A stretch of DNA of 64,000 bases. Source: Verrucomicrobiia bacterium (lineage in GTDB: Bacteria; Verrucomicrobiota; Verrucomicrobiia; Opitutales; Cerasicoccaceae). Each line of letters begins with the position of its first letter. Position 1 is the stretch's first letter. Location of the stretch: positions 62,001 through 126,000 of the forward strand of contig JAUIAM010000001.1 of NCBI GenBank assembly GCA_030425485.1, written 5' to 3'. Below the pieces are notes generated by a model, which was not told the DNA's origin, did not search any database, and was given only the letters and a program-made list of their open reading frames with translations. The translations under genes were made by a program, and so were the position numbers. Of the stretch, positions 46,495 to 64,000 are shown one piece after another.

Positions 46495-46895
46495 GCAACT
46501 TACCGCATGAGTGGCTTATTGCCAGAGCTGCTGCCGAGGGTATGGCGCAGCCATCGTGGCAGACATACAGAGCCAGGAGTGGGAGTGGGATAGAGTCATC
46601 GAATTACACTCTACGCGTCGGAATGCTATACCTTTCTGCTCCGACCAATGGAGAAATCTCCCAACTCTACCGAGAGGTAAACTCGTCGATAACGTTGGCA
46701 TCTTCAGAGTGCTGGCACGCATGGTGGTGCCCTAAGCGGCTTCTTCACCGAGTACCGCAGGGCCCAACTCCTCGAGGGTGCGCTGCAAAAGGCGGACGCC
46801 GACCTTCCATCTTTTGATACCGTACTAGAGCATGAGACTGCCTGCGGCAGTGGCCCGTTTTCGAAACCTCAATTATCGTCTTGTGCATCATTATT
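46495..46895. other. Intergenic region, about 400 bases, no gene seen
   Basis: Only short frames without family resemblance are present. The stretch ends at the 29-bp motif copy at 46896. It may hold debris of the deleted 5' part of the glycoside hydrolase fragment that follows, but I found no clear translated match to the intact paralogue's N-terminal half. Confidence 0.4.
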
Positions 46896-46924
46896 CGGAG
46901 ATAGGTATGCAAGACATATGACTT
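46896..46924 (+). promoter_or_regulatory. 29-bp motif, copy 1 (before the GH fragment)
   Basis: CGGAGAT at the 5' end, TGCAA at positions 13-17 and CTT at the end match the module 3 motif without gaps. CATCAT precedes it as in copies 2 and 4. It overlaps the first ATG of the fragment at 46918, which suggests that the original leader and N-terminal coding sequence were deleted. Confidence 0.6.
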
Positions 46925-47523
46925 TTAAAAGATTCACAGGATGTCCATGCTGTGGAGCTCTCATGGCGGAAGATGCCGAAGAAGGTGCCTATCCCCTTTT
47001 GTTAGATCAAGAGAGTACACCTGTCCTGCGTTCTGATAACGGACAGCTCGTATGGGATCGCAGCAACCCTGAGGCGGGCCTGATCACGATTGATACTCCT
47101 AAAACGAAAGTACTGCTAGGCTATACAGCGGGGGAGCCGGTCGAGTTTGATGGCCTCAAGATTGAAGCGACTGATGACGAGCGATGGCAGATTATCGGTC
47201 TGACCGCTCAGGACGATAAGCCGCTGAGAAAGAGTGAGCACATGCTGCTCGTAGCCAGTGGCAACTCTGAGAATACAGATATGGGCTGGACCAGTGAGGA
47301 AAAAGTTTCGGTCGCAGATAATTGGGGGGAGGCGCCTACCCTTATCGAGGTGATAGAAGCGCGGATACACCTGAAGCATCCAGGCCAGATTCGAGTGTGG
47401 GCTCTGGACGAAACGGGTGAGCGAGCCGAACCGATAGCCGTGCAGCGCGATCGAGACGGATTCCATGTATTCTCCATCGGTCAGGATGCGCCCACCCTGT
47501 GGTATGAGATCGAAGCAAAGTGA
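46918..47523 (+). pseudogene. Truncated C-terminal fragment of a glycoside hydrolase
   Basis: A 201-codon frame whose residues ~35-200 match the last ~168 residues of the intact protein at 48089, with blocks such as GLITIDT, KTKVLLGYT, WQIIGLT, WGEAPTL and IRVWALDETG in the same order. The first ~34 residues (with GCPCCGALM) do not match. The catalytic barrel, carbohydrate-binding domain and signal peptide are all missing, so this is most likely the remnant of a tandem paralogue. It could still be read as a small protein, since its frame is intact. Confidence 0.75.
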
Positions 47524-48088
47524 TCTTTGCACGAATCGTTGAGCGGGAGCATCGATTTAATTTTTTAATCGAGCGATGTGGTTCGGTGTGTCCGTATGGT
47601 TTTGAGAGCGTCGCGCGCGATCATAAGCTGTTTCTCATCATTTTTCAGAGGTAAGAATGCAAGCAAAGTGTCTTCTCAAATATACCGTATAGAGGTTATG
47701 TTAGAGGCGATCTTACATAGCATTAAGCCCCGCTTGGATTTCGGGTGTTGATGCATTTCTGCTTTGTTCAACGAAACCAGATTCGATTGAAACCATGACA
47801 AGAATCGGCTCCATCGGCCACGCGTTCTGCGAATGGCGTGCCAGTAACTTTCCCAGAAAGATGAGGGAGTTATGTTTATCTGACTCGTTATGTCTTTCGC
47901 TCTCCCCGAGGAAAAAGAAAGTACCGGGCAGGGTCAAAAGCTGCGGCAGGTTAAGGCGACTGCTCGCCGCGTACAAATCCTCAAAGGAGCGGATGCGCAT
48001 AGCCACCCTGTGGTAGCTGTGTCTTGTGGATTCTACAGTGCTTTTCTCAACCCCTCTTAGCCATGTCCATAACTCTAACCCCTAACTT
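47524..48088. other. Intergenic region, 565 bases, regulatory motif but no convincing gene
   Basis: A TCGATT/AATCGA stem with a T-rich loop lies at about 47552-47573, just after the fragment's stop. A 29-bp motif copy is at 47646. A 97-codon leftward frame at 47713-48006 has no recognisable domain, and nothing marks it as coding. The long leader before 48089 is unusual compared with the other motif-carrying genes. Confidence 0.45.
47646..47674 (+). promoter_or_regulatory. 29-bp motif, copy 2 (before the secreted GH gene)
   Basis: CAGAGGT at the 5' end, TGCAA at positions 13-17 and TCTT at the end. CATCATTTTT precedes it. It lies 415 bases before the glycoside hydrolase start at 48089, further than in the other copies, so the promoter may produce a long leader. 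Confidence 0.55.
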
Positions 48089-50782
48089 ATGAACATACTA
48101 CCCCTCCAAATACCTATCCAAGCCACCCTCAGACGACTATCTCGATTAAGGCTGTGCATGACGTTATCGCACTGCGCAGTTGCTGTCGGCACTGCCCATG
48201 CGGCGGATATGATCCCGTTTACCCTGCCTTACGATGATTCCTCGAACAGCATCGTCAGCCGGGCAGATACATTGAACGCGCCAGCGGGTAGCATGGGGCA
48301 TATTACGGTTGGCCTCGATGGTCATTTATACGAAGGCAGTGAGCGCATACGCTTTCTAGGCTTCAACCTCGGAGCCGTTTCGAACTTCCCCCTTAGCCAT
48401 GAGGCAGACGATGCGGCCGCACGTATGGCCAAGTTTGGGATCAATATCGTGCGCTTGCACCAGATGGACTTCGGTTGGGATCCCTCAGAGCGCAGCATAT
48501 TTGGCGTGGATGAGGATGACTCGCTTGAGCTGGACGAAGACTCCCAGGAGCGCCTCTGGTACTTGGTGGAAAAGTTGAAGGAGCAGGGCATTTATGTGCA
48601 TATTGACTTGCTCTGTTCGCGTCGATTTTGGACTGCCGACGGTTTGCCGACTTCGATAGACACGCTTTCAAATCACCAAAAAGAGGTTCAACGCCTGGCT
48701 TTGTTCGATGAGGATATGATCCAACTGCAAAAAGATTATGCGGAGGACTTACTGAGCACAAAGAACCCCGTTACCAACTTGTCGCTGGCGGAGGATCCGG
48801 TGGTCGCATTCATTGGAATTAACAACGAGAACAGTTTGCTGACGATCTGGCAGGAAGGCTTCAGTGGCAACTTGAGCAAGCCGGGTGCTGCCAACCCCGT
48901 CGAGATGCCTTCAGAGTTTGCGCTTGATCTGCGTAGCCAGTGGAATGACTGGTTGGCCACGCAATACGCCTCTAACTATGCACTAAAGATAGCTTGGAAA
49001 GTGGACGCTGCGGGCAGCAATCTAATCCAGAATGGAGACTTCAGCAATGGTTACTCCGGCTGGGATACGTATCTGCTACAGGGCGCCGATGCGGATTACA
49101 ATATTGCCTCTTCGCCATTCGGAGCGGCGGCTGAGGTGGATGTGACCACCAGTGGGCCCGATATCTGGTCCGTCCAAATGAGACAGGAGCTGTTCAGTCT
49201 GGATTTGGACAAAGGGTACATCCTGCGTTTCAAGGCACGTGCGACCGAGCCTCGGGATATTCGGGTACGTATGCATAATGGTGATGGTCGGGCGAAAACG
49301 CTAGATACCTACATCACACTCGATACTGACTGGCATGAATTCGAGTTCCACCTAATGCCTCATGACAGCGACTTGGGACTCTATCTTTGCGACATGCATG
49401 CTGGGGCTTCCTACTATTATACGGATGTGGAGGTAGTTGCGAGGACGCTGCCCAGCGACCAATCGCTGGATAATCCAAACCAGCCCATCTCTATGTATAG
49501 TAGCAGGCTGTCCGGAAATGCCCTCAAGGACTGGGTCAGATTTCTGTATTACATCGAGTCCACCTATTATGAGGAGATGAGCGATTTCCTGAGAAATGAC
49601 CTGAACTGTGATGCCCTACTGGTGGGCAGCCAGGTCGGGCATTCCGTGTCGAGCCTGATGGCGGAGCTCGACGTGGTCGATACGCACAAATACTGGAATC
49701 ACCCGGAGTTTCCGCCCGGCTACTGGAATACCGTAGACTGGACCGTTGAGAACGAAAGCATGGTCAACGACGATGAATTTGAGCTCGCGGACGAGGCAAC
49801 TTTTCGGGTTTTCGGAAAGCCATTCATTATGTCGGAGTATGACCATCCGGCTCCGTCATTCTATGCCGGGGAGGCACCGATCATGGCCGCCCTCATGGGG
49901 GCGCTTCAGGGCTGGGATGGCATCATGTATTTCAAATATGCCGGTGAAGACCAGGATGGCGGTTGGGATAAGGACCATGTTGACAAATGGTTCCAGTATG
50001 CGCCCCATACAACCAAGATGGCCAACATGATCCTTGCGTCGAACCTCTTTCGCCGGGGTGATTTGAGTGAACTATCACAGGTCGACGATATCCCTTCGTC
50101 AGCGGCTCAAGAGCAAAAGTTCATTTTCGACAAACGCCCAGCTCCATGGGGTGCTGATTTCTACGGCATGCCCCCGGAGAATGCCTTCCACTACCGAGTC
50201 GGGGTAGACCTTGACGAGAACCACCAACTGTACGGAACGCATCCATTCCCCGCGGTGAATGCAAACTACATACACTCGGCGAACGGGGAGTTCATATGGG
50301 ATCGGACTCAGCCCAATGCAGGACTGATCACGATTGATACTGAACGGACAAAGGTGCTTTTGGGCTACACAGAGGATGATGTCATCGAGATGAATGGGCT
50401 CCGCATCAAGACCGTCCGTGAACGAGAATGGCAGATTATCGGACTGACATCGCAGGATGAAGATCCGCTGCCATTAAACGTCAGCCAGAAAATATTACTC
50501 ATAGCCAACGGCAAGACGGAGAATACGAACATGGGCTGGACCGACACGAACTATAACTCCGTGTCGACTAGTTGGGGTGAGGCACCAACCCTGGTCGAGC
50601 AGGTGCACGCTCGTATCAGCCTGGAGCACCAGTACCCTATCCGGGTCTGGGCACTGGACGAAACCGGTAAGAAGGGCGAGGAGATTTGCGTCGGTACCGA
50701 TGCGGAGGACCGCCACGTATTCATGATCGGTGAGGGTGATCCGACTATATGGTACGCCATCGAAGCTCAGGTCGCCCAATAA
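48089..50782 (+). CDS. Secreted glycoside hydrolase with embedded carbohydrate-binding domain
   Basis: An 897-residue protein with a signal peptide ending near AHA (about 38). The catalytic TIM barrel is of the GH5/GH42 (clan GH-A) kind: FLGFNLGAVSNFPL and VRLHQMDFGWD, the acid/base glutamate E247 in GINNENS, and the probable nucleophile E583 in FIMSEYDHP. Residues ~311-452 (LIQNGDFSNGYSGWDTY onward) form a CBM4/9-like carbohydrate-binding domain placed between the two catalytic residues. The last ~170 residues form a beta domain, duplicated as a fragment at 46918. It leads a run with the two-repeat secreted protein (23 bases on) and the pseudopilin. Confidence 0.82.
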   Translation: MNILPLQIPIQATLRRLSRLRLCMTLSHCAVAVGTAHAADMIPFTLPYDDSSNSIVSRADTLNAPAGSMGHITVGLDGHLYEGSERIRFLGFNLGAVSNFPLSHEADDAAARMAKFGINIVRLHQMDFGWDPSERSIFGVDEDDSLELDEDSQERLWYLVEKLKEQGIYVHIDLLCSRRFWTADGLPTSIDTLSNHQKEVQRLALFDEDMIQLQKDYAEDLLSTKNPVTNLSLAEDPVVAFIGINNENSLLTIWQEGFSGNLSKPGAANPVEMPSEFALDLRSQWNDWLATQYASNYALKIAWKVDAAGSNLIQNGDFSNGYSGWDTYLLQGADADYNIASSPFGAAAEVDVTTSGPDIWSVQMRQELFSLDLDKGYILRFKARATEPRDIRVRMHNGDGRAKTLDTYITLDTDWHEFEFHLMPHDSDLGLYLCDMHAGASYYYTDVEVVARTLPSDQSLDNPNQPISMYSSRLSGNALKDWVRFLYYIESTYYEEMSDFLRNDLNCDALLVGSQVGHSVSSLMAELDVVDTHKYWNHPEFPPGYWNTVDWTVENESMVNDDEFELADEATFRVFGKPFIMSEYDHPAPSFYAGEAPIMAALMGALQGWDGIMYFKYAGEDQDGGWDKDHVDKWFQYAPHTTKMANMILASNLFRRGDLSELSQVDDIPSSAAQEQKFIFDKRPAPWGADFYGMPPENAFHYRVGVDLDENHQLYGTHPFPAVNANYIHSANGEFIWDRTQPNAGLITIDTERTKVLLGYTEDDVIEMNGLRIKTVREREWQIIGLTSQDEDPLPLNVSQKILLIANGKTENTNMGWTDTNYNSVSTSWGEAPTLVEQVHARISLEHQYPIRVWALDETGKKGEEICVGTDAEDRHVFMIGEGDPTIWYAIEAQVAQ

Positions 50783-50805
50783 TAACTTAATACCAAAGGT
50801 TAGCT

Positions 50806-52656
50806 ATGAAGTATTTACCCTCGATCCAAACAATGATTTACAACGCAAAGATTGCCAGCCTCATGGTTGTGGCAATGATACTGTGTTCGACTGCCAGCTC
50901 TGAGGTTTACAACTACAAGCGCATCGGCGAAGACAGTAATGGTAAATGGGAGGATAATTGCAAGTGGGACCCGGTCCCGGATTTCTTTATCGGTGGAAAT
51001 TGGATCGCTCACTGGGAGCCTGGCAATAACACCCGGACAGACAGCGTGACTATCGATGGTGCTATCGTGAGTAGCCCTTACAAGTATGTGGCATTCAAAA
51101 TCCCATACAACGCGACAGAGCAAGCGGGGAAAAACGGGACCTATACCGCTCTTACGCTTACCGACGATGCCACGCTCGAATTAGGCGCATTTCAGATCAG
51201 CTCCGCGTCAAGCAATGGCGCTGAGTTTGTGCGCAATGCGGACATACAGTCGGGCTCCAGCCTGTCCGTTATCGAGCTGACTACGGGAGCACAAAACAAT
51301 ACCCAGAACTGCAGTACCTGGAACATTGCCGGTACCGTTCAGGCTGGATCCTTCCAAGGCTTGCTTGGGTATCATAACTCGAACGGTGGGTATATTCTCA
51401 ATGTCGCTGGTGGCAGCCTGGACGTCACGAATAGCTTCGACTGGTTTAGCAACGATTCAAGTGAGACCAGCTATGCGAACACATCAGAAGAAGCCATTGC
51501 CCACATAAACCTCTCCAATCGCGGGTCACTTACAGTCGGGACGATGGAGGGAAACTGGACGCATTCGGACGAAGCCTACATCAACTTTATGGATACCTCC
51601 AGTAGCGCGACTTTTGGTAAAGCGAACTTCGTATCCGCAGGAGATATCGAGCAGCTCATTAGCGAAGGGCATATTCGCGTCGACGGGGACAGCGTAGCCG
51701 CTTCGGACATCAAAATAGTGGATAATGGTAGTACATGGACGATCTCTGCCTCTCAGGATACGATGGTCAACCACTTCACCTGGGTGGGGCCAGAAACAGG
51801 TGGTAACTGGAGCGATGAAAGCAGTTGGTACCCGGTGCCCGAGCTTCCGCTGGTTACCGGCTCTGCTGATACGTGGATCGGTGGCTGGCGCAGTGAAAAT
51901 TCGACTAAGTTGGACACGGTAACCATTGACGGTGCCACGATCAACAGTAGCAAGAATCTCGATTTCCGTGTGCATGGTGCGGCGGCGGCGAATAAGGATG
52001 GTACCTACACTTCCCTTACGCTTACGAACAACGCATCGCTTACGGTTGCTGATTTGCAAATCACCACTTGCCGCATTGACGGGATAGACTATATCCGCAA
52101 TGCGGACATTCAGGCGGGATCCAGCCTGAATGTTGATGAGCTTATGACGGGCTCCTCTAATTGGACACCCGCCACATCGAGTAGCACTTGGAACATCGAA
52201 GGTTCGGTCCAGGCAGCTACGTTCAAAGGCCAGTTTGGCACTTACTACATCGTACCTGCAATGCAAGTGGCTGGTGGCTATATCCTGAATATCAATGGGG
52301 GTAGCCTAACCGTAAGCGGGGATTTTGACTGGAACTATAACGACTCCCCGGCCCATCACACCCCTTCGCCAATGGCGATCGGTCGCATCAATATCTCGAA
52401 TGGTGGAACATTCTCGGCGGGTACGATAGATACCAACTTGGGATTTTCATCGGAATCCTACCTTAACTTTGCCGACGGCACGGGCAGCGCGACCTTTGGG
52501 GTGACGGAAGATCTGGATACCGCCCAAGATATTGCATCTCTGATAATTCAGGGGCATATCCGTATCAACGGATCTCCGAATACTCCCCTTAATCAGTTCG
52601 ACATCGATTTGGATAATACCGAGCAAACCTGGACTATTAGTCCCGCATCTGAATAA
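50806..52656 (+). CDS. Secreted protein with two tandem copies of a ~290-residue beta domain
   Basis: A 616-residue protein with a signal peptide (about 1-32). Residues ~35-320 and ~321-616 are two copies of one domain. Each starts with a W-x-P-V-P segment and continues through TDSVTIDGA or DTVTIDGA, NADIQ-GSSL, TWNI-G-VQA and GGYILN--GGSL. The same domain occurs once in the PEP-CTERM protein at 54929. This protein ends without a PEP-CTERM signal, so it should be released or held by partners. It resembles the Gly/Asn-rich beta-helical proteins of Verrucomicrobiota; function is unknown. Confidence 0.78.
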   Translation: MKYLPSIQTMIYNAKIASLMVVAMILCSTASSEVYNYKRIGEDSNGKWEDNCKWDPVPDFFIGGNWIAHWEPGNNTRTDSVTIDGAIVSSPYKYVAFKIPYNATEQAGKNGTYTALTLTDDATLELGAFQISSASSNGAEFVRNADIQSGSSLSVIELTTGAQNNTQNCSTWNIAGTVQAGSFQGLLGYHNSNGGYILNVAGGSLDVTNSFDWFSNDSSETSYANTSEEAIAHINLSNRGSLTVGTMEGNWTHSDEAYINFMDTSSSATFGKANFVSAGDIEQLISEGHIRVDGDSVAASDIKIVDNGSTWTISASQDTMVNHFTWVGPETGGNWSDESSWYPVPELPLVTGSADTWIGGWRSENSTKLDTVTIDGATINSSKNLDFRVHGAAAANKDGTYTSLTLTNNASLTVADLQITTCRIDGIDYIRNADIQAGSSLNVDELMTGSSNWTPATSSSTWNIEGSVQAATFKGQFGTYYIVPAMQVAGGYILNINGGSLTVSGDFDWNYNDSPAHHTPSPMAIGRINISNGGTFSAGTIDTNLGFSSESYLNFADGTGSATFGVTEDLDTAQDIASLIIQGHIRINGSPNTPLNQFDIDLDNTEQTWTISPASE

Positions 52657-52678
52657 TAAAATAACCGTATAACCTTAT

Positions 52679-53425
52679 ATGAAGCGTGAATGTATTCTTC
52701 TTTCCGGGCACTCGCTGAGGAGCTCTAAGCCCGGGTTCTCTTTAGTGGAACTTCTGACAGTGATTGCGGTAATCGGGATATTGGCGGGCATTCTCATTCC
52801 CGTTATTAGCCGTATGAGGATGTCGGGCAGCACGGTTCAGTGCGTTTCCAATCTGCGCAATATGCAGCTCGCCAACAATATGTATGCTGCGCAGAATAAT
52901 AATCGGTACTTGTCTGGATTGAGCTTCGATAGCGAGCGAAATATGGAGCATACTTGGTTGGCCAATGTCGAGTATTACGAGATGTTGACCAGCATGAGAG
53001 ATGAGCAAAGAGCGAACTCGCGCTCGTGGGAGCACGATCTCCTCTGTCCCGCCACGCGCGCTATGGGGTCACCTCGTTGGGATTATATCGGTGCTAATTA
53101 TGGCATTAACTATTTACTGCTAAGGGCGGAGCTTGACCTCCCGGCATGGGGTGTCGAAGGGAGTTGGTCCATTCCGACGAGTAAGATCGAGCATCCAGCG
53201 CAGACAGTGGCTTTTGCTGATTCGGTGGACTGGCTTTTGAAGCGACTCGACGGGTATTCCTTGAGTGATGAGGAGGAGAATGGCTATAACTCCGGCGGGT
53301 ATTTGGCCTTTCGCCATGGGGGGAAGGCCAACGCGGTGAACTTTGACGCCAGTGTGGACACCTACACGGTAGAAGACATTGCGCGACCTGAAATCCGGAA
53401 GCGATTTACGCAGAGAGAAGAATAA
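52679..53425 (+). CDS. Pseudopilin-like protein with H-X9-D motif (module 3)
   Basis: A 248-residue protein. The prepilin core is GFSLVELLTVIAVIGILAG after a ~19-residue leader, then CVSNLRNMQLANNMY. The C-terminal motif is HGGKANAVNFDA from H213, with Ala replacing the usual Gly after Asp. It is 22 bases after the two-repeat protein gene, so here the pseudopilin comes last in the run instead of first. It ends 8 bases from the convergent XylR-type regulator. Confidence 0.85.
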   Translation: MKRECILLSGHSLRSSKPGFSLVELLTVIAVIGILAGILIPVISRMRMSGSTVQCVSNLRNMQLANNMYAAQNNNRYLSGLSFDSERNMEHTWLANVEYYEMLTSMRDEQRANSRSWEHDLLCPATRAMGSPRWDYIGANYGINYLLLRAELDLPAWGVEGSWSIPTSKIEHPAQTVAFADSVDWLLKRLDGYSLSDEEENGYNSGGYLAFRHGGKANAVNFDASVDTYTVEDIARPEIRKRFTQREE

Positions 53426-53433
53426 GGGTCTGA

Positions 53434-54672
53434 CTATTCTCTTCCGTTGGCTTGACGGTATTGGGCAGGCGTCATGCCAGTCTGCTTCTTGAATACGATC
53501 CCGAATCGAGTATCGCTGGTGAAGCCGCATTCGCTGGCTATCTCATACATTTTCTTGTTTTGCTCGATGAGGAGATGCTTGGCTTTTTCCATCCGCTTTC
53601 GGGTAATTTCTTCGGCGATGGTATGCCCCACGTGTTTGCGAAAGGCGTCATGTAGGCAGCGGTATGACATTGGTACGATTGAAGCCACGCTCTTGGCGTT
53701 GATCATACGAGAGTAGTTTTGCCATATGTACTTTAAAATAGTTCGGACATGGGGATGCTGGATCGTAAGCATGTCTGTGCTCTGCCGCTTCATTACACTT
53801 TTGGGCTGGACGAGAATCGGCTCATCCGGCGCAGCTTCCCCGTTCATGAGCCTGTCAAGCTGTGCGGCCGCTTCGTAGCCTTCCATCTCCTGATTGCTGT
53901 CGATGCTCGAAAGCGGGATGGGGGCGAAGTCGCAGCGCAATGTGTCGTTGTTGATGCCGAGTATGGCAACCTCCTCTGGAATCCGAATCCCTCGCTTTAT
54001 GCATGCCTGCATGACTTCGATGCCGACTTCGTCATGTTCAGCCAGGATGGCTAGTGGCTTGGGTAACTGCGAGATGTGGTCCCCGAGCCAATCCAGGAAT
54101 TGAGACTTATTGTAGTTTCTGTCCCCGTAGTTATAGGAACCTTTCCAATATATGCCGTGGAATCTTCCTCCGGCTTTTTCGATTTCCTTTTTTAAGGAGA
54201 GTCCTCTCAGGCGAGTCGAGGTGAACTTTCTGTTTGATCGGCTACAAAACGCTGCGTGCCTGAACCCCTGCGTGATGAAATGTTCTGCTGCAACTTGCGC
54301 TATTCCCGAGTGATCCGTTCGCACAGTTGGAGCCCCAGGGATGCGAACGTCGCCTATGTTAACGACCGGGCACTGTTGCTTAGCTACGAATCGATATAAA
54401 TTGGTGTTATGATATAATTGAGAGATTATGCCATCGCCCTGCCAGTTGGTCGGCGCGGTAACGCTCCGGGTCATGCTGACATCCAAAATCCAGTTTGCCT
54501 GTTTCGCATAGCGCGCGATGCCCTTATGCGTTCCCGTTGAATACCAACTGAGTGCTAGTAGAATGGAAGGTCGGTTAATGAGTTGCGAGGTTGGCTTCGA
54601 TTTACTTGGAACTGCTTTTGATTGCTTACGAGCCGCCTTCTTTCCTCGCGGATTCTTCTTAGCTGTAGCCAT
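53434..54672 (-). CDS. XylR-type transcriptional regulator (LacI sensor, AraC DNA-binding)
   Basis: A 412-residue regulator. A Lys/Ala-rich N-terminal tail (1-30) precedes a type 1 periplasmic-binding sensor (~34-290), with LALSWYSTGTHKGIARY, AEHFITQGFRHAAFCS and ILGINNDTLRCDFAPIPLSSID. AraC-type helix-turn-helices follow (~305-408), with MYEIASECGFTSDTRFGIVFKKQTG. This is the layout of E. coli XylR. It binds a sugar and should control glycan genes nearby; the 29-bp motif copy beside its own start suggests autoregulation. Confidence 0.9.
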   Translation of the reverse strand: MATAKKNPRGKKAARKQSKAVPSKSKPTSQLINRPSILLALSWYSTGTHKGIARYAKQANWILDVSMTRSVTAPTNWQGDGIISQLYHNTNLYRFVAKQQCPVVNIGDVRIPGAPTVRTDHSGIAQVAAEHFITQGFRHAAFCSRSNRKFTSTRLRGLSLKKEIEKAGGRFHGIYWKGSYNYGDRNYNKSQFLDWLGDHISQLPKPLAILAEHDEVGIEVMQACIKRGIRIPEEVAILGINNDTLRCDFAPIPLSSIDSNQEMEGYEAAAQLDRLMNGEAAPDEPILVQPKSVMKRQSTDMLTIQHPHVRTILKYIWQNYSRMINAKSVASIVPMSYRCLHDAFRKHVGHTIAEEITRKRMEKAKHLLIEQNKKMYEIASECGFTSDTRFGIVFKKQTGMTPAQYRQANGRE

Positions 54673-54737
54673 GCTTCAAGGGGGTAGGTTTGTCGGCAAA
54701 CTTGGGGTTAATCTCGCGAAAAAGTTGAATCATTTTT

Positions 54738-54766
54738 CGGAGATATAAGCGTAATGAATATGCCTT
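54738..54766 (+). promoter_or_regulatory. 29-bp motif, copy 3 (beside the XylR-type regulator)
   Basis: CGGAGAT at the 5' end, CGTAA in place of TGCAA at positions 13-17, AATAT at 20-24 and CCTT at the end. CATTTTT precedes it. It is 66 bases upstream of the regulator start but points away from it, as an autoregulatory site might. Confidence 0.55.
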
Positions 54767-54863
54767 ATGGTAGATTTATGCAAGTGCTATGTTCTGGGTA
54801 ATTCCTTCGTCTCAAGGCTCGCGCCCTTTCAATGGCAGGAGTGCAGTCTCGCCTCGTGGGTGC

Positions 54864-54892
54864 AAAAAAACCGACCGGAAGAGTCCGGTCGG
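54864..54892 (-). terminator. Rho-independent terminator after the PEP-CTERM gene
   Basis: On the minus strand CCGACCGG pairs with CCGGTCGG around a 6-base loop, followed by seven T. It lies 37 bases after the stop codon of the leftward gene at 54929. This is a classic intrinsic terminator. Confidence 0.85.
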
Positions 54893-54928
54893 CTTCGTAT
54901 TGGAATGGTCTTAAATAGACACACGCGC

Positions 54929-55900
54929 TTAGTGGTGTGCTTGACGTCTACGGAAGGTGATGCTGAGGGCTACGAGTGCGCCGAAGGCAAAGGCGACGTT
55001 TGAGGGCTCGGGGATGGTGGAGGTGATTTCCCAAACTGATCCGCCGTCGTTGATTTGGAATTCGGTGGGCGAGATGGCGCCGTTCAGGCGAATCTGTCCG
55101 TTGTCGATCAGAGCCTGGACATCCACGATCGTATCGAAGTTTGTTTTACCAAAGGTCACGCTACCCGTGCCATCGAGGAAGTCAATGTAGGTGTTAGCCG
55201 ACTCGGACCAATTGGCGGTCATGGTGCCGGCAGAGATCGTGCCGCCGTTGGAGAGATTGATTCGGCCATTGGCTAAATTTTCTTCGTCAATACCGTTCGA
55301 GTCCCAGTTGAACGTGCCAGCGACTGTCAGGCTACCACCGTCAAGGTTGATAAAGTAGCCACCGGAAGCTTGGGCCGGGAAGAAATTACCAAGGAGCCCG
55401 TTAAAGTTGGCTGCCTGGACGGAGCCGCCAATGCTCCATGTGGTGCTCGATGTGGCGGGTGTCCAGTTTGATGAGCCCGTTGTGAGCAGGTTGACATTCA
55501 AGCTGGAGCCCGATTGGATATCCATATTGCGGATATAGTCTATACCGGAGCTGCGTGAGCTGGAGACGCGAAAATTACCCGCGGTGAGCGAAGCATTGTT
55601 ACTGAGGGTGAGAGAGGTGTGAGTCCCTTCCTGGCCAGATAGCGGGTTGGCCCCCGGGACAAGGTAGAATTCAAGAGCGTAGCCGCCTGTGGTGACCGAG
55701 GCGCCATCAATGGAGACGGTGTCCAGATTGGTTCTGTTAGAACTTCTCCAGTCGGCGATCCAGGTGATTTGGGGAGGTGTAACGGTTGGTAAGTCTGGTA
55801 CCGGGGTCCAGTTGTTTGCAGTTTTCCAATCGCCACCCGAACTGGGGCCAGTCCAGTCGTAGTTCATGATTTGTGCACTGGCTTGTGAGGTGAGCAGCAT
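54929..55900 (-). CDS. PEP-CTERM protein, single beta domain, broken signal peptide
   Basis: The open frame from 55900 gives 323 residues starting MLLTSQASAQ, which is only the end of a signal peptide. The body is one copy of the beta domain found twice in the protein at 50806 (MDIQSGSSLNV, SSNWTPATSS, GGSVQAANFNG). The C terminus has IPEPSN, a hydrophobic helix and FRRRQAHH, a PEP-CTERM signal. Upstream the same frame continues with a normal signal peptide start, interrupted by one TAA (see 55901-55969). As read from 55900 the protein may not be exported, so the gene may be inactive unless the stop is bypassed or is a sequencing error. Confidence 0.75.
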   Translation of the reverse strand: MLLTSQASAQIMNYDWTGPSSGGDWKTANNWTPVPDLPTVTPPQITWIADWRSSNRTNLDTVSIDGASVTTGGYALEFYLVPGANPLSGQEGTHTSLTLSNNASLTAGNFRVSSSRSSGIDYIRNMDIQSGSSLNVNLLTTGSSNWTPATSSTTWSIGGSVQAANFNGLLGNFFPAQASGGYFINLDGGSLTVAGTFNWDSNGIDEENLANGRINLSNGGTISAGTMTANWSESANTYIDFLDGTGSVTFGKTNFDTIVDVQALIDNGQIRLNGAISPTEFQINDGGSVWEITSTIPEPSNVAFAFGALVALSITFRRRQAHH

Positions 55901-55969
55901 GCCTGCGGCGATCAGGCACAGAACTCCAGTTGATGCTTATAGCATGTTGGTTGAGGGCGTTTTACTCAT
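55901..55969 (-). pseudogene. Upstream part of the same signal peptide with in-frame TAA
   Basis: In the frame of the gene at 54929, codons from ATG 55969 read MSKTPSTNML, then TAA (55937-55939), then ASTGVLCLIAAG joined to MLLTSQASAQ. Without the stop this is a typical signal peptide: basic start, hydrophobic core, cleavage after ASA. The stop therefore interrupts an otherwise complete 346-residue protein. Confidence 0.65.
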
Positions 55970-56075
55970 AGCTTATATAGGTTGATTATGGGGTTTTGAG
56001 AGTCGGCACCTGCAATGAAATCCAATGGTTGGATGATTCATTACGTGAAATATAGCTCAGGTGCGTATTATTTAA

Positions 56076-56104
56076 AAGGAGCATTCGTTGCAATTTCATC
56101 TCCG
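56076..56104 (-). promoter_or_regulatory. 29-bp motif, copy 4 (before the PEP-CTERM gene)
   Basis: Read leftward: CGGAGAT at the 5' end, TGCAA at positions 13-17 and CCTT at the end, preceded by CATCAT. It lies about 106 bases before the reconstructed start at 55969. Confidence 0.6.
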
Positions 56105-56148
56105 AAAGATGATGCCTGATGATTGGTTACTTCCGTGCATCTGAAAGG

Positions 56149-57672
56149 TTAACTGTTGTTATCCTGCTTCAAGTACTGGTTCATTTCTGCCTGAAGTGCC
56201 TTTACCGTTTCTTGGTACTCGGGGTCCTCAGCCAGGTTGCGGGTTTCGAGAGGGTCCTCTGCGTAGTCGTAAAGCTCGATCTGAAGCGGATCTTGGGTTC
56301 CGTTTGCGGAGCGATCCACATTATCTGTCTCATACCAGGCGATAAAGCGGAAGCGCAGAGTGCGCATGGCGTAGCCCACTTTATTCCAGCGGGGGTACTG
56401 GCTCATGACGTATTTGCGTGTGGTGCTGTCCGGTACTTGCATGAACGGCACCAGGCTGAGGCCGTCGAGCTGGCTGGGGATGCTCAATCCGGCAAGTTGA
56501 CACACGGTGGGGTAGACATCGATCAAGCCCACGGGTTGAGTGGTTTCCTTGCCTCCGGATATGCCGGGTGAGACGATGATGAGAGGCACATGGGTGGCCT
56601 GTTCGTAGTTCGTATGTTTGGACCACTGGCCATGGTCGCCCAGGTGCCAGCCGTGGTCAGAAAGCAGAACGATAATCGTATCATTTTCCAGCCCGAGCGC
56701 TTCGATCTTACCAAGTAGTTTGGCAATTTGCGCGTCGATATAAGCCGCGCAGGCGTAGTAGCCGTGGATCAGCTCGCGCTGCATATCGGCAGTTAGCGGG
56801 CCCTCCTCCGGGATTCCGCTGTAGGCGCGAAGCTCGGGCCAGTGGTCCCAGCTGAAGTCGGGACCGTTCACGGGTTTTTCCTGATAAGATGCCAATTCGA
56901 TCTTATCGGCATCGATCATGTCCCAATATTTCTTGGGAGCAACGAAGGGCAAGTGTGGTTTTGAGAAGCCGACGGTGAGAAAGAAGGGCTGCTCCTCTTG
57001 CGATAGTTCGTCGAGTAAGCCAAGCGCGTATTGGGTCATCGCACCATCGAAGTAAGCGTTGTCGGGCACATCGGAAGATTCTACCGCCGGCTTTGCGCCT
57101 TTATCCGCCATATACTTGTTCAGTTCACGCCAGTGGGTGATGCCTTCCGCTTTGGCCTCCTTCTCGACTTTGCGTATATCGTCGCCCTGATATCCATTGG
57201 CTGGATGGCCATGGTCTTCATTGTAGTGTTTGGCTATTTGCCAGTTTTTGGTATAGGGGTAGCTCCAGGACGCGGTATCCATGCCCTTATCGACATTGCT
57301 GCCGGTAAAGACCTTGCCCATTCCAATCGAGGTGTAGCCGTGTTCTTTAAAATACTGGGGCAAGGTGACAAGGTCCGGAACAACGGCGCGTAGATTTGCC
57401 TGGGTGTCCCAAACCTGTGTCGTGTCGGGGCGCAGACCTGTCATCAGGCTGGCGCGGGAAGGTCCACACACAGCTTGCTGGCAGTGGGCATTGAGAAAGG
57501 TCGTGCCGCTGGCAGCGAGGCTGTCGATCGCCGGGGTGAAAACATCGCCGCCAAAGGCGCTCAGCTCGGGCTTGAGGTCATCGACGATGATAAAGAGTAC
57601 GTTGGGTTGTTTGGCAGATGCTCCGTTCAAGAAGAGAGCAAGAGTAGCAACGATGGGGGTTAAAATCTTCAT
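56149..57672 (-). CDS. Sulfatase, iduronate-2-sulfatase-like
   Basis: A 507-residue S1-type sulfatase with a signal peptide ending at ASA (residue 20). C69-G-P-S-R73 is the formylglycine motif, and NVLFIIVDDLKPEL gives the metal-binding aspartates. QQAVCGPSRASLMTGLRPDT and LLSDHGWHLGDHG match the iduronate-2-sulfatase-like subgroup, which removes 2-O-sulfate from uronic acids and related sugars. It would act outside the cytoplasm and needs an anaerobic or FGE-type maturase encoded elsewhere. A 29-bp motif copy lies 69 bases before its start. Confidence 0.9.
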   Translation of the reverse strand: MKILTPIVATLALFLNGASAKQPNVLFIIVDDLKPELSAFGGDVFTPAIDSLAASGTTFLNAHCQQAVCGPSRASLMTGLRPDTTQVWDTQANLRAVVPDLVTLPQYFKEHGYTSIGMGKVFTGSNVDKGMDTASWSYPYTKNWQIAKHYNEDHGHPANGYQGDDIRKVEKEAKAEGITHWRELNKYMADKGAKPAVESSDVPDNAYFDGAMTQYALGLLDELSQEEQPFFLTVGFSKPHLPFVAPKKYWDMIDADKIELASYQEKPVNGPDFSWDHWPELRAYSGIPEEGPLTADMQRELIHGYYACAAYIDAQIAKLLGKIEALGLENDTIIVLLSDHGWHLGDHGQWSKHTNYEQATHVPLIIVSPGISGGKETTQPVGLIDVYPTVCQLAGLSIPSQLDGLSLVPFMQVPDSTTRKYVMSQYPRWNKVGYAMRTLRFRFIAWYETDNVDRSANGTQDPLQIELYDYAEDPLETRNLAEDPEYQETVKALQAEMNQYLKQDNNS

Positions 57673-57741
57673 AAATTAATCTCTGCTTCTATGGGGCGAA
57701 TAAACGACGCCAATACTATGGGTCGGAAGGTGTTCTTTATA

Positions 57742-57770
57742 AAGGTATATTGTTTGCAGTTCTATCTCTG
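57742..57770 (-). promoter_or_regulatory. 29-bp motif, copy 5 (before the sulfatase gene)
   Basis: Read leftward: CAGAGAT at the 5' end, TGCAA at positions 13-17, AATAT at 20-24 and CCTT at the end. It is almost identical to copy 6. It lies 69 bases upstream of the sulfatase start. Confidence 0.65.
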
Positions 57771-57889
57771 AAAATGGAATCACCGCGATAATTCTGGATT
57801 GATCTGGGCTCGAAGGAGGCATGGTGGCCAGATAAATGGCCTGTGTCTCCTATTCTTGAGGTTTCTGCACAGTCTGTGCGTCTAACAGA

Positions 57890-58624
57890 TCAGTTGGTCT
57901 GTTGGGTGGTGTGCAAAGATTGGTTGATAGTTTTTACCCGAATGGACCTTTCAGTTTTTCCAGGCAGGAGGAAAACGATTGTGCGGACATTTGGGCCGTG
58001 GCTCCATGTGGATCGACGTGCCAGTTGCCATCCGTCCTGAGTGGATGCTGCGATCTGGATAACAACGCTTGCTTCGTCATCGGAAGAGAAGCGAAAGAGA
58101 TGCTCGGCGCGTTGCTTGATCGTTACGGGGTCTTCTTCTCCAACTTTCACAGCCACGGCAGTGGGGGAGAGGTTAAACATGCGCCACGAATTTTCCGGAG
58201 CGCGACTGAGGCTATCGTCGAGCACGTGAACGTTGTATCGCCCAACTTCCTGCTTGTTCTCTGCAAATAATAGAAGAACTTCCTTGCCGGAATATCCTGT
58301 CAGGTTAGCGGCTGCGACGGGACGCTTGATTGTTTGCTCTTCGGCTCCGGCCTCGCGGACATAGAACACTAACTGTGGTGGGCCAGTGTACTCTTTGGGT
58401 GTTGAGCGCGTAACGGTCGAGGTCCAGATCATTTGGGCTTCACCGTCGCTGTCAAAATAGAGGTTGTTAACCGGACTATCCAGGCTCAGTGCCGTGAAGC
58501 GCACGGACACGATCTCTTGTTGCTGAGCCGAGAGCACGGTTGTGCCAAGGAATAGAGTCAGGAGGATGGGGTGGAGATAGACGTAGCGAGGGTAATACAT
58601 TTTAAAAAACGGTTGGCTAGCCAA
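57890..58624 (-). CDS. Secreted protein of unknown function, next to the Verru_Chthon-A-like gene
   Basis: A 244-residue protein with an N-terminal signal: YLHPILLTLFLGTTVLSAQ (about 17-34). A start at the in-frame ATG 58600 (MYYPRY) would give a more usual signal length. The mature part is beta-rich, with LVFYVREAGAEEQTIKRP and EVLLLFAENKQEVGRYNV. I do not recognise the family. It is 43 bases downstream of the large PilX-like gene on the same strand, so the two are probably co-transcribed. Confidence 0.65.
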   Translation of the reverse strand: MASQPFFKMYYPRYVYLHPILLTLFLGTTVLSAQQQEIVSVRFTALSLDSPVNNLYFDSDGEAQMIWTSTVTRSTPKEYTGPPQLVFYVREAGAEEQTIKRPVAAANLTGYSGKEVLLLFAENKQEVGRYNVHVLDDSLSRAPENSWRMFNLSPTAVAVKVGEEDPVTIKQRAEHLFRFSSDDEASVVIQIAASTQDGWQLARRSTWSHGPNVRTIVFLLPGKTERSIRVKTINQSLHTTQQTN

Positions 58625-58667
58625 TGAACTGGACGAGTTGTTACGTCAGTGTCGCAGTCAGATTCAC

Positions 58668-60104
58668 TTAAATGTCGCTCTTAGTCAGCCAGCGGAAAGA
58701 AATGATGCGGAACCTGCGATTAGCGTCGCGGGCCAGGTGATCCTGTCCATGTACGGTTTCTTCGGGCATGCGTTGAACCACGGCCTCGCACCAAGCTTGG
58801 GTATCAACGTTCCCGGTGAGGGGGTTAATGCTATCGCCGTAACTGCGAATCGTAAACGTGTCCGAGCGAGCGGTCATTAGGGGGCCGAGAGTTTGGAGAA
58901 TGTCGGCCTGTGTCAGGTAGCCCGGAAAACCGCTGGTTGGAGCATTGCCATTAAACTGGTTGTGGGTGATGCCGCTGGGGGAGGGAGCGCCGCTATAGGC
59001 ATCGGCGAGAACGGCATCGTTCAGTCCGGCCCTGTTAACGGCCTCCTGAAGTATTCCGGCGCGGGCAGGTCCATTGTTGGGAGCATCTTCCAGCGGGCGA
59101 TTGACAAACTCGGCCAGTGAGGAAAAGGGCTCTCCACGCTGGCGAATGAGGGCGACGATCTCTGTGGCCAGGGCTTGGGTTTCGGCATCATCGAGTGCAC
59201 GGTATCCGCGCCAGAAAGTCATGCCATCGACATCTATGCTATCGTATTTTCCGTCTATCGGGTGCATGAGGCGGGAGAAGACTGCTCCGCTTTCTGTAGT
59301 TGTATTGTTTTGCAGTTCCGCAGTGTCCGGGTGGTAGCTGGGGATTGCGAGGTTACGCGATGAGGCGAGGAAAGCGGCCCATGCTTCGGCCGACGTAGAG
59401 TTGATGTTAAATGCACCCTCAATGGCCATATTTGAGGCGACTTCGTAAAAGGTTTCGCTGTCATCGCCTCCGTCATTGTTCGTCAGATCATCCGGGGAGA
59501 GTCTGGCATCGCGCGATATAAGGCGCAGGCGGTGATTTGGCAGGTGCCCTTTATCGCGTTGCAGGTCTGACAGATTAGCCGGGGTGAGGCCCTGGGGAAT
59601 GCTGGAGAAAAAATAGCTGTCCCAGAGTTGCTGATTGAGCACGTAGCTCAAATCCCAGGCATCGATATTTTTGTCACCATAGCCTGTCGCGTGGAAGTCG
59701 TTAAGATCACGGATACGTGCCGGAGCAAAGCTGTTACCGATAATGTAGCTCGGGTCGATGGTATAGCGGCCTATGTTGGCGTGCTGGAGTGAGCCGAGGG
59801 AGAGGAGAGGCTCGCGCGGGACATCGAATAACGCGGTACGTGCGACGCCGCCTTCGATAAAGTCAACGCTACCACCGGAGAAGCCGGTGAAGCGTCCACC
59901 GGCAGCATCATTGTCGCCAATGTTTCCGTAAGGGTCATCATCAAGATAACCGTAAGCCTGGGTGCCTGCGACCTCGCCGGTGTAAATGCTGCTGGCATAG
60001 AAATTACCGTTCATCTTATCCCACGTCGCGGGGCCGCACATGGCGCGGATGTTATGGTCAACGAGCAGACGGCTTTGCATATGCTCGTCAAATGCTCCTC
60101 GCAT
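58668..60104 (-). pseudogene. Verru_Chthon cassette A-like protein, C-terminal part (after frameshift)
   Basis: A 478-codon frame that continues the protein encoded at 60011-62344 in the -1 frame. It begins in MRGAFDEHMQSRLLVDHN, which joins naturally to the LAGNVQSLG of the first part. It contains NIDAWDLSYVLNQQLWDSYFFSS, NMAIEGAFNINSTSAEAWAAFL and DTFTIRSYGD, all typical of the C-terminal half of Verru_Chthon cassette protein A. The family pairs with pilin-like proteins of unknown export function. With the break, the C-terminal half has no leader and is probably not made as a functional protein. Confidence 0.7.
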
Positions 60105-62344
60105 CCAGAAGCCCCAAGCGACTGTACATTCCCCGCTAGCTGGCCGGGCGAAAGGATATACTGCTTTGTATGGTTGCTGCCATGGCCATCCACGATGGGA
60201 TTGAAATACTGGGTGTGGGATGAACTTGCCGCGATATCATCAGGTTTGCCGTTATGCATGTAGCGGACGCTTGCCCCACTTCCTGTGGCGATGTCGATAA
60301 TTACCAGATCATCGGCAGTCACTTCCAGATAGGTTTTCTCCTTTTCCGAGAGTCCGAACTTATCCGTGATGTTATCTCGATTCTTCTCTCCGTAAACCGG
60401 CCCGATCTCACTCGCGCTAAAGGCGCGCTTCAGGTCGAGGATAAGATGCCCGCTGTCGGGCGCATACTGGCTGTCCTCCTTCTCGGCAGTGCTGAGTACA
60501 AGCAGGTGGAAGTCATCTTCCCGATCGCCATCGCCATCGTCGTAGAGGAATTCACTGCGCGTCACATTTTCCCAGAGGCCATAGAGGCGTGTTTCACCGG
60601 GGTAGAGGTCATTGTAGTATGCACCAGTCTGCCCCTTTTCCCATGGGAGGGTCATTTCCAGTTCGGGGGCGATGTTGCCGGATGCGTCGGGCTCGTCATC
60701 CTCCATGGTGAGTACTTCGCGCATGTAGAAAATAACGCCATCCTGGCCGTCCAGGCCATCTTTGGGTGCGTACTCGCCATCTTCACCTCGTTCTCGCACC
60801 CGTATCCTTATCCATGGTGTAAATGACCAGCGGACTTTGTTTTGCATGGTCCTGCCATACTTGTCCTTTGGTGGATCGAGATGGATGTTATAGGGATTGT
60901 ACAGTGCAACCAGCGGAGCGACCAGCAGTATGGGCGAGTATACGTTCTCCGTACTTTCATCCGGAAGAGTGATGGTATCCACCTTTTCGTAGGAAAGTTT
61001 TATCGAAACCTGAAGGCGTGCCAGGATGGCATTGATCGGACTATTTCCATGATAGCCTTCTTCGCTGCTGTCAGGCTTATATGGCTGGTCTTCGCTCCAG
61101 CTTACAGTCATGGGATATACTGAGCGTGAGCTGTCCAGCGGGATCGGCATATTGGCCGTTGTGCGACCATTGATGACTCCGAGTCTGTCTTTGAGTTGAT
61201 AGAAGGAGCGCAGGTTGGACCAGTTTGGGAACCCGCCTGCCTGGTAGCCGTGATCCTGTAGCTCAACGAAGTAGAATCGATCGGAGTCGTTGTTCCACTG
61301 GCCGAAGTACTTTTCAAAGACGCTGTCGTTCTCAAAGGCGAGGGTCAGGTCTCCGCGAAAGCCTCCCCAGCGGGTATCCGTGAGCAGGCCCATCGAGTAG
61401 GGGCTGAGGTCGTGCCAATGCTCGTTAAGCGTTTGCCGTGTTGCCGAGTCACCCGGTCCCCAGAGGACATTGAGAGCGCTGAAGCTATCGGCATCTTCAA
61501 GCCGCTCATCCGTCCGGTCGTAAATATCTGCGAGCTCGTTGTTGACCGCAGGGTCGGTGGCGGCTGGGAGTTGAAAGGCAAGGCGTGACTTTTCGCCGTC
61601 GGTTGCGTCAAGTACGTCGGGGGTATTCTGAGTCTGGATGCGGGCTTTGATGCCCTCATCACCGACCCACCAGGCGTAGTGTCCGATCGTATTGGTGTCG
61701 CTATCCTTAAGTGGGACTTTGGGGGCGATGACGGCTCCATCGAGGTTGGCGGATGCTGCCTCATTGGCCCCTTTATCGATCAAGGTTGAGGCCCCAACCA
61801 AGTACACGGCAGTACTATTTGGGTCAGAACCAAAGTCCGCGAGGCCACTCATGTCATGATCGGGCGTGTAGTTGAGGTCTTCGCCAGTTGAGGCATCAAT
61901 GCCTTCATTGCCGCTGATGAGCCATGTCATGAGTTCGGATTGCGAGGGGGCGAGGTTCTCAACACTGGGGACGACCGGGTGACGGGTATCGGGGTCCACC
62001 GGGTGATTGGTATCCTCCGGGGGGATGCTCTTCCAAACGCCAGTCCAGTACGCGTTGGGCACGGCTGCGCCCGAACTGATGTCGGACCGAGCCGTTACAC
62101 GCTGATCGGTGCCGGCCGTCCGTTGCAACTCTGCCAAAGCCAGGTTGAGCCCCAAGAGCGCATTCTGGCGGGCCTCAAACATTGTGCTCTGCCGGGTCGC
62201 AAGCTTAAGCTCAACATTGACCAGTGAGGTCAGACTCATCATTAAGAGGACAACAAAGCCCATCAGCATAAGTGCGATGATGAGCGCAAATCCGCGCTTT
62301 CTTGAGGGTGAATTGGCGGTGCTTATAGCTATGTGGGAGCGCAT
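60011..62344 (-). pseudogene. Verru_Chthon cassette A-like / PilX-like protein, N-terminal part (frameshifted)
   Basis: A 777-codon frame. KRGFALIIALMLMGFVVLLM (about 17-36) is a prepilin or PilX-like leader and helix, followed by ARQNALLGLNLALAELQR, as in Verru_Chthon cassette protein A. The last ~30 residues after LAGNVQSLG are out-of-frame sequence. The frame breaks at the CCCC run 60112-60115 (GGGG on the coding strand), where one base fewer would be needed to be restored. The joined protein would be about 1,220 residues, near the expected family size. Other cassette members (B, C, D) are absent from the window. Confidence 0.75.
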
Positions 62345-62413
62345 TACGAGAGAGGGCTGAGGTAGGTTTTGGGTGTTGTGCTGCTAAGACCATGGCGAGG
62401 TCTATGCCGTCAT

Positions 62414-63850
62414 CTAGTAGATGTCTGGAATTTCATAAGTTTCAGCGGGCTGGTAAGGCTCAGTGCCAACATGCTCCGCCCATGCGTGGATGGTGTCGTG
62501 GGCATGGTGATAGGCGGGGTGAATGGCATTGATCTGTGTGGCCAGCCAGTTCTCCAGCCATGGCGAGCAGATGCTGCCGGCCAGTGAGGCCTGCAAGGCC
62601 TCTGCGTGTAGTTTGGCCTGTCCGTGGTTCTCTTTGATATAACCAAGATTCCTCCAGCCGATGGCGCCCATGGCTCGGGTGTTGTCGTGCTGGCGGCAGG
62701 CCACATACATGTGAGTGCCTTTAATGTGTCGCCAAGCTTCATCCACGCGCGCGGTCAATTTTTGCACAAGGTTAACACGAGTCTGCCAGTTTTTCGCCTC
62801 GCCGATTCGATCGAGTGCGAGGGTCAATTGCTCCGCGTGGGCGTCATGAATACGTCCGTCGTGCAAGGCGGCACCGATCAGAAAGAAAACGTTGAGTGTG
62901 ATATCAAAGGGCGCGATCTGCCACAGTTCGGTGCTGTAGCGGCTCCAGCCTGTGGCACAGACACCTTTCAGGGCTTTAACTTCTTCGCACAGCTTGGCCC
63001 AGCCCTCGGCGTTTTCTACCCGCTTATCAAGATGCGGGAGGTTTACCATGGAGCCGTCCCCGCCCTTGTAGGCGGCGGCGCCCCAGAGGTTGGCGCCAGC
63101 CTGGGCAAAGCGGTCGATCACTTCACGTGAATAAGGGCCGCTGTCTCCGCCGGGTTGCCCTTGGTATCCCCAGACCATGATGTCAACCTGTTTGAGGAAG
63201 TGGCTCAGTTCCTGGATATCCCACTCGATCATCATGTCGTGCCAGAGCATTGGCCGAATGCCCCGCTCATTTACGATGTCCAGCAGCGGCTGATAATGAT
63301 GGCAGAACAGTGCGGCTTTGCTGTGTTCTTTCAGGTAGGCCTGTCCTGCTTCGCTCTGGGCGAAGCACCACGACTCATCCCCGCCCAGGTGCAGGTACTT
63401 GACGTCGGGGAAGAGGTCCATCATATCGCGCACCATGCCCGAAATCAGCTCGGCGGCTCCGTCGGCCAGGGGATTGATACTGGCGATGTTGTTGGGCTCC
63501 TCAAGCATGTGCGCGTAGTTATCAAAGCGCAGGAAACTCTCCATGTGGCCGAGCGTTTGTACCAACGGGATGATTTCCAGTTCAAGTGCCTTGGCCTCAT
63601 CGCTGATTTTCTGAATCTGCTCGCGGGAATAGTGGCTGGCGTTGCGGAATCGCTGGTCCACTTCCCAGGGGAACATGTCTTCCCATTCTAGCAGGACTGC
63701 GTTGTACCCCGCGTAGCGAATGATTCGCAAGTGTTCCAGGAGGCGATCAAAGGTTGGTGGCACGCCCTTGAAATCTATGTGGGCAATGCGCCACTGGATT
63801 TTCGGTTCGGGCTCATTTAACATCGGATTGATCTGGTTTTTGATAGACAT
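62414..63850 (-). CDS. GH20-like beta-N-acetylhexosaminidase
   Basis: A 478-residue TIM-barrel protein. The GH20 Asp-Glu pair is in LHLGGDESW (D158, E159), preceded by IPLVQTLGHMESFLRF and AVLLEWEDMFP. GH20 enzymes remove beta-linked N-acetylglucosamine or N-acetylgalactosamine with substrate-assisted catalysis. It lacks a signal peptide and lacks the usual N-terminal GH20b domain, so it is likely a cytoplasmic variant. The first ATG at 63850 is chosen; a second Met 10 codons in is possible. A 29-bp motif copy lies about 124 bases before the start. Confidence 0.82.
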   Translation of the reverse strand: MSIKNQINPMLNEPEPKIQWRIAHIDFKGVPPTFDRLLEHLRIIRYAGYNAVLLEWEDMFPWEVDQRFRNASHYSREQIQKISDEAKALELEIIPLVQTLGHMESFLRFDNYAHMLEEPNNIASINPLADGAAELISGMVRDMMDLFPDVKYLHLGGDESWCFAQSEAGQAYLKEHSKAALFCHHYQPLLDIVNERGIRPMLWHDMMIEWDIQELSHFLKQVDIMVWGYQGQPGGDSGPYSREVIDRFAQAGANLWGAAAYKGGDGSMVNLPHLDKRVENAEGWAKLCEEVKALKGVCATGWSRYSTELWQIAPFDITLNVFFLIGAALHDGRIHDAHAEQLTLALDRIGEAKNWQTRVNLVQKLTARVDEAWRHIKGTHMYVACRQHDNTRAMGAIGWRNLGYIKENHGQAKLHAEALQASLAGSICSPWLENWLATQINAIHPAYHHAHDTIHAWAEHVGTEPYQPAETYEIPDIY

Positions 63851-63974
63851 GCTTCTTTGCGCTAGTTGGGTTTAGATTGTTTACTGATTAAGTTTCTAAA
63901 GAGAGTGATGTATTTTTCAGGAATAATGCGTTGGGCATCTAAGTGAGAATATAAGCTACGCGGCCATTACATTG

Positions 63975-64000
63975 AAGGTATATTGCTTGCAGTTTTATCT
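63975..64000 (-). promoter_or_regulatory. 29-bp motif, copy 6 (before the GH20-like gene, cut by window edge)
   Basis: Read leftward, 26 of 29 positions are visible: AGAT, TGCAA at positions 13-17, AATAT at 20-24 and CCTT. They differ from copy 5 at two positions only. The first three bases lie beyond the window. Confidence 0.6.

Follow-up and report, generated by a model that had tools for sequence, protein, structure and literature searches.

The 64,000-bp stretch of DNA analysed here (the window) carries repeated copies of one short motif ahead of genes for secreted glycan-degrading and surface proteins, which raises the question of what reads this motif and to what effect. The window corresponds to C33:62001-126000 of its genome, and homolog matches assign it to Verrucomicrobiota, with a position close to Opitutales being probable. 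The original prediction described six ungapped copies of a 29-bp sequence and named an XylR-type protein as the likely reader. All six copies are present and align without gaps; the 29-bp motif is real, but it is the core of a longer element of ~47 bp plus a -10 box. The element begins TCATTTTTCGGAGATAgAAtTGCAAgcAATATgCCTT, its conserved columns, ~47 in number, read TCATTTTTCGGAGATAgAAtTGCAAgcAATATgCCTTtTaAAaGAT, and a sigma70-like -10 box (TATATT/TATGTT) follows at a fixed distance. Describing one part of the motif as “mostly AATAT” was too strong, as this string occurs in three of the six sites. The sixth copy is indeed cut at the window edge, and is complete just beyond it (C33:125967-126012). 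In line with the proposal that the element is not palindromic, a half-site search within it returned no significant direct or inverted repeat, the best direct repeat having a shift of 31 bp and a permutation p of 0.28. The sites in the window are listed below with their scores under R1, a sequence model built from seven local sites (s1-s7).

46887-46933, plus strand: putative operator s1 (46.5 bits), before ORF 46918-47523; weak -10 box CATGCT at 46946-46951
47637-47683, plus strand: putative operator s2 (44.7 bits), before a decayed Gfo/Idh remnant and the secreted glycoside hydrolase (GH) gene at 48089; -10 box TATGTT at 47697-47702
54729-54775, plus strand: putative operator s3 (43.9 bits), 56 bp upstream of the XylR-type regulator and pointing away from it; -10 box TATGTT at 54788-54793
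56067-56113, minus strand: putative operator s4 (46.5 bits), before the PEP-CTERM protein gene 54929-55900; -10 box TATATT at 56049-56054
57733-57779, minus strand: putative operator s5 (44.8 bits), before the sulfatase gene 56149-57672; -10 box TAGTAT at 57713-57718
63966-64000 (to 64012 in the contig), minus strand: putative operator s6 (47.2 bits when complete), before the GH20 gene 62414-63850; -10 box TATATT at 63948-63953

Leave-one-out position weight matrix scores for the six sites were 19-30 bits over 29 columns and 31-41 bits over 39 columns, so far above the best non-site scores in the 64-kb window (3.1 and -2.5, respectively) that chance is excluded as the origin of the motif. A seventh local copy, s7, lies 144 bp past the window edge (C33:126144-126194, plus strand), and an eighth, s8, which was not used in building the model, lies elsewhere in the genome beside a paralogous regulator (C54:206782-206830). 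None of the eight copies falls inside conserved coding sequence, and only the mechanical start of ORF 46918 overlaps a site. When R1 was run on the whole genome (a 3.81 Mb draft), it returned eight matches at E<1e-4, namely the seven training sites and s8, with the next best match at E=0.16; seven of the eight are confined to a 17-kb cluster (C33:108885-126194), six of them in the window. The genome-wide matrix scan that had been put forward as a check therefore gave matches only at promoters of the cluster and at the promoter beside the paralogous regulator. Pairwise identity between sites is 0.68 within the element versus 0.24 upstream and 0.25 further downstream; with flanks so unrelated, the sites do not represent a larger block that was duplicated, nor a mobile repeat.

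The genes that follow these sites, and the regulator that lies among them, are:

46918-47523, plus strand: C-terminal GH remnant behind s1, 54-55% identical (blastp) to the C-terminal ends of the two full GH copies
48089-50782, plus strand: putative secreted glycoside hydrolase of 897 aa with a CBM_4_9 domain, 53% identical to the GH of the C54 operon
50806-53425, plus strand: rest of the s2 unit, comprising a 616-aa secreted repeat protein and a prepilin-like protein
53434-54672, minus strand: XylR-type regulator of 412 aa (Pfam: Peripla_BP_3 and AraC-type HTH)
54929-55900, minus strand: PEP-CTERM-type surface protein, putative target of s4 (ORF with a C-terminal PEP motif)
56149-57672, minus strand: sulfatase, putative target of s5 (Sulfatase E=1.9e-48, SGSH_C)
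57890-63850, minus strand: s6 unit, comprising the GH20 gene 62414-63850 (Glyco_hydro_20 E=5.3e-14) and ORFs 60011-62344, 58668-60104 and 57890-58624

The genes behind s7, outside the window, encode a 1450-aa PATR/autotransporter-repeat protein and a second sulfatase. There is one site per transcription unit from 46.9 kb to this second sulfatase, and none at the sugar-metabolism genes upstream of 46.5 kb. The combination of GH20 with sulfatases hints at a sulfated, hexosamine-containing glycan as substrate. For the 897-aa protein, a PDB search matched only the CBM and an AlphaFold model made from two sequences (mean pLDDT 32) indicated no GH family. ORF 46918-47523 is the C-terminal remnant of a third copy of this GH, with the conserved element still in front. 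The 616-aa secreted protein (50806-52656) consists of tandemly duplicated halves, both related to the PEP-CTERM protein 54929-55900 (42-51% identity). A tyrosine recombinase is encoded just past the second sulfatase (C33:132767-133834), and the cluster may accordingly lie next to an integrative island.

The regulator has the layout of an AraC/LacI hybrid, with Peripla_BP_3 at 129-299 and HTH_18 at 330-407. Among solved structures, its best relative is E. coli XylR (4fe7, E=1.4e-36, aligned over 44-410). The XylR N-terminal domain (PF22177, PBP1_XylR) scored 19.8 bits in the regulator, below the curated cut-off of 27 bits, and we therefore regard the protein as a relative of XylR rather than XylR itself. 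Judging from sequence, we consider it very likely that the motif is the operator of this regulator (53434-54672), and that a sugar-bound dimer would bind the ~47-bp element, recruit sigma70 RNA polymerase and activate the units of the cluster together, so that one protein probably turns on the whole glycan-degradation cluster.

The geometry of the promoters bears on how such activation might work. The -10 box starts 12 nt after the element at s4, s6 and s8 (TATATT), s2 and s3 (TATGTT) and s7 (TAGGTT); at s5 the box TAGTAT is offset by 2 nt, and at s1 the box CATGCT is poor. The mean -10 score at the fixed offset was 6.1, compared with a shuffled maximum averaging 1.0 (0/1000 shuffles, p<0.001), and the box occupies columns 60-65 in six to seven of the eight promoters, a fixed operator/-10 spacing of class II type. 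A generic promoter scan found promoter-like sites to be no commoner than in shuffled sequence. Standard spacing places the transcription start ~7 nt after the -10 box; if this applies here, the element would span ~-71 to -25, abutting or overlying the -35 region, and an AraC-family activator touching RNA polymerase would sit at just such a position. Two sites count against reading the element as the operator of this regulator: s1 precedes a gene remnant and has a poor -10 box, and s3 has a good -10 box that is directed away from the regulator, towards no surviving gene.

In the proposed mechanism, a sugar derived from the activity of the cluster would charge the regulator dimer, which would then occupy the whole element (about positions -71 to -25 in each promoter) and recruit sigma70 RNA polymerase to the -10 box at its fixed distance; the secreted GH, sulfatases, GH20 and PEP-CTERM proteins would thereby be switched on together when the sugar is present. 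Occupancy of the whole element by a dimer and recruitment of polymerase are suggested by analogy with E. coli XylR and MtlR, and we infer binding itself, activation rather than repression, the dimer state and the ligand. It is unlikely that the same regulator acts through the same operator mainly as a repressor, occupying the -35 region until sugar releases it in the manner of LacI. Such a role would suit the LacI-like ligand-binding half of the protein and the overlap of the element with the expected -35 position, but the half that binds DNA is of AraC type, E. coli XylR as the nearest relative with a solved structure is reported to be an activator (PMC6375646), and a constant -10 spacing at the downstream edge is what would be expected if the bound protein must contact polymerase.

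Activation by the regulator at 53434-54672 also presupposes that this protein, and not a relative, reads the element. The source genome contains many XylR-like homologs (27 matches), and the sole close paralog of the window regulator is the one at C54 (73-75% identity). The two loci are similarly laid out: the distance between site and regulator start codon is 55 bp for s8 and the paralog and 56 bp for s3 and the window regulator, and at C54 the regulator and its site are followed by a divergent operon containing a 53%-identical GH. This operon, behind s8, encodes a Gfo/Idh oxidoreductase, a TIM-barrel protein, a second Gfo/Idh and an 898-aa GH. The first operator box is CRGAGRKA at the window sites versus CCAAGATA at the C54 operator, and the second recognition helix differs between the two paralogous regulators (SDTRFGIVF versus DDTIFGVVF). 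In other species the second recognition helix EDRMGRVF is paired with the operator box CGACGA, and helix and first box seem to vary together across species; in G002, TGCAA is lost from the operator and the first recognition helix is altered.

Orthologs of the window regulator with 45-53% identity were found in eight further genomes. R1 gave nothing significant at orthologs of 47-51% identity, which made necessary both a fixed-position matrix test and R2, a model with ortholog sites added. A footprint matrix built only from the eight sites of the source genome was applied to upstream regions: in 8/8 orthologs (≥45% identity) the best match has the same orientation, away from the regulator, 31-55 nt from the start of homology, whereas upstream of nine more distant homologs (35-41% identity) it matched in 0/9. 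None of 300 shuffles reached the observed score for four orthologs, and shuffle p values for the remainder were 0.003 (JAITDF), 0.013 (G002), 0.013 (G041) and 0.067 (G100); the single-site evidence for G100, G002 and G041 is weak. Examples of ortholog sites are TTCATTTTTCGACGATAAAAGTGCAAGCAAATGC in G213 and TTCATATTTTGATAATAAGATTGCAAGAAAAC in JAITDF. In a tree of the regulators, one branch (support 75/70) sets the ten motif-bearing proteins apart from the rest, and 0/500 shuffles were as clustered. With R2, the best match in each ortholog genome was at the regulator, including G100, which was left out of the training set. Across 384 genomes of the class, each of the 13 R2 matches at E<0.007 falls either within the cluster or next to a regulator of this clade; the 12 weaker matches, at E 0.0085-0.05 in other genomes, are compatible with chance and lie near no regulator of this family. 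The assignment to the XylR-type regulator, offered at first as an inference, is thus backed by the co-occurrence of motif and orthologs. The putative operator is limited to functionally linked promoters and evolves with the regulator, as befits a regulon.

These comparisons make it decidedly unlikely that the element is bound by another regulator instead, either the C54 paralog or some other AraC/LacI-type protein of the genome. The many XylR-like homologs or the paralog could bind it as well, and the paralog has a motif copy of its own; the motif nevertheless tracks orthologs of the window regulator across genomes, and the C54 operator carries the variant first box in place of CRGAGRKA. It is highly improbable that the motif is no operator at all but a sigma-factor promoter element, part of an RNA leader or a repeat sequence: it does lie close to a -10 box, but the genome has no further copies of it and it is placed upstream of the predicted start site, an Rfam search with the element matched no family, and the flanks share no common repeat.

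For the window regulator as reader of the element, the genes beside its orthologs show what such an operator may have served. At the orthologs, the gene that the promoter faces is GH130 in four genomes (G002, G003, G041 and G241); in G213 and G330 it encodes a GPH-type sugar transporter, with GH130 next in line, and in G100 the promoter faces a set of surface-protein genes similar to that of the window. The assignments were made by Pfam for G003 and G041 and by sequence resemblance for the other genomes. As the site is kept beside the regulator in the paralog and in orthologs, the window regulator would, like these, bind 55-56 bp ahead of its own start codon, and it probably regulates its own gene and, in the ancestral state, also a divergent catabolic operon. 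The neighbours of the G100 ortholog (G100:C61) include PEP-CTERM, prepilin-secretion-like and 57890-like genes as in the window, with GH130 on the other side. The source genome has a GH130 homolog (G000:C34:38368-38955) without an operator; in relatives GH130 is the divergent target.

Local regulons under an AraC/LacI hybrid are a known kind of system, to which this one belongs; its operator is absent from the literature searched, and for Verrucomicrobia that search found no operator for XylR-type AraC/LacI hybrid regulators. E. coli XylR (4fe7), which acts at the xylA/xylF/xylE promoters, likewise combines a LacI-like sugar domain with an AraC-type HTH and governs a local catabolic regulon. 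It uses two adjacent sites, one of them beside the RNA polymerase site (PMC6375646), and a binding region adjoining polymerase is common to both systems, the placement here being predicted. In contrast to XylR, the window regulator scores below the cut-off of the PBP1_XylR model, and its putative targets are secreted glycan-degrading and surface proteins rather than xylose genes; with regard to D-xylose as a possible ligand, its neighbours are GH20 and sulfatases, and GH130 in orthologous loci. The AraC/XylS-type activator MtlR of Pseudomonas fluorescens also has a long operator, which must extend for 37 bp or more immediately ahead of the -35 in the promoter that it activates (PMC4514859), although it differs in ligand-binding domain and pathway, and here at least seven promoters have a common operator. 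A further likeness is to the carrageenan regulon of Zobellia galactanivorans, in which glycan-degradation genes are coordinately regulated and for which AraC-family proteins and sulfatases are mentioned (PMC5698469); that organism belongs to another phylum.

The cluster also retains traces of its history. Between s2 and its GH, a 405-bp stretch (47683-48088) contains a decayed 5′ piece of a Gfo/Idh gene (66% over 142 nt), the intact counterpart of which is the gene after s8 at C54. Because of this piece, and of the GH remnant after s1, the cluster is probably derived from a regulator-operator-Gfo/Idh-GH unit of the kind present at C54, with the operator later gained by unrelated genes. In other genomes the operator is single-copy, at the regulator, compared with seven local promoters in the source genome, and its spread from one to seven promoters is an unusual expansion. 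One tentative account, which we find possible rather than probable, is that a regulon is being born here: a locus of regulator plus operon was duplicated, the operator-promoter cassette of one copy then came to occupy seven promoters within 17 kb instead of one, and operator and recognition helix diverged between the two copies (CRGAGRKA versus CCAAGATA), insulating them from each other. That the first box differs between the paralogs together with the second recognition helix seems a lead in this respect.

With a defined operator and its regulator, seven promoters close together and relatives that have the operator in single copy, this regulon is directly testable, and it provides a natural series for how a regulon grows from one promoter to many. 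By the same route, the orphan XylR-like regulators, of which these genomes contain many, could be matched to their glycan clusters.
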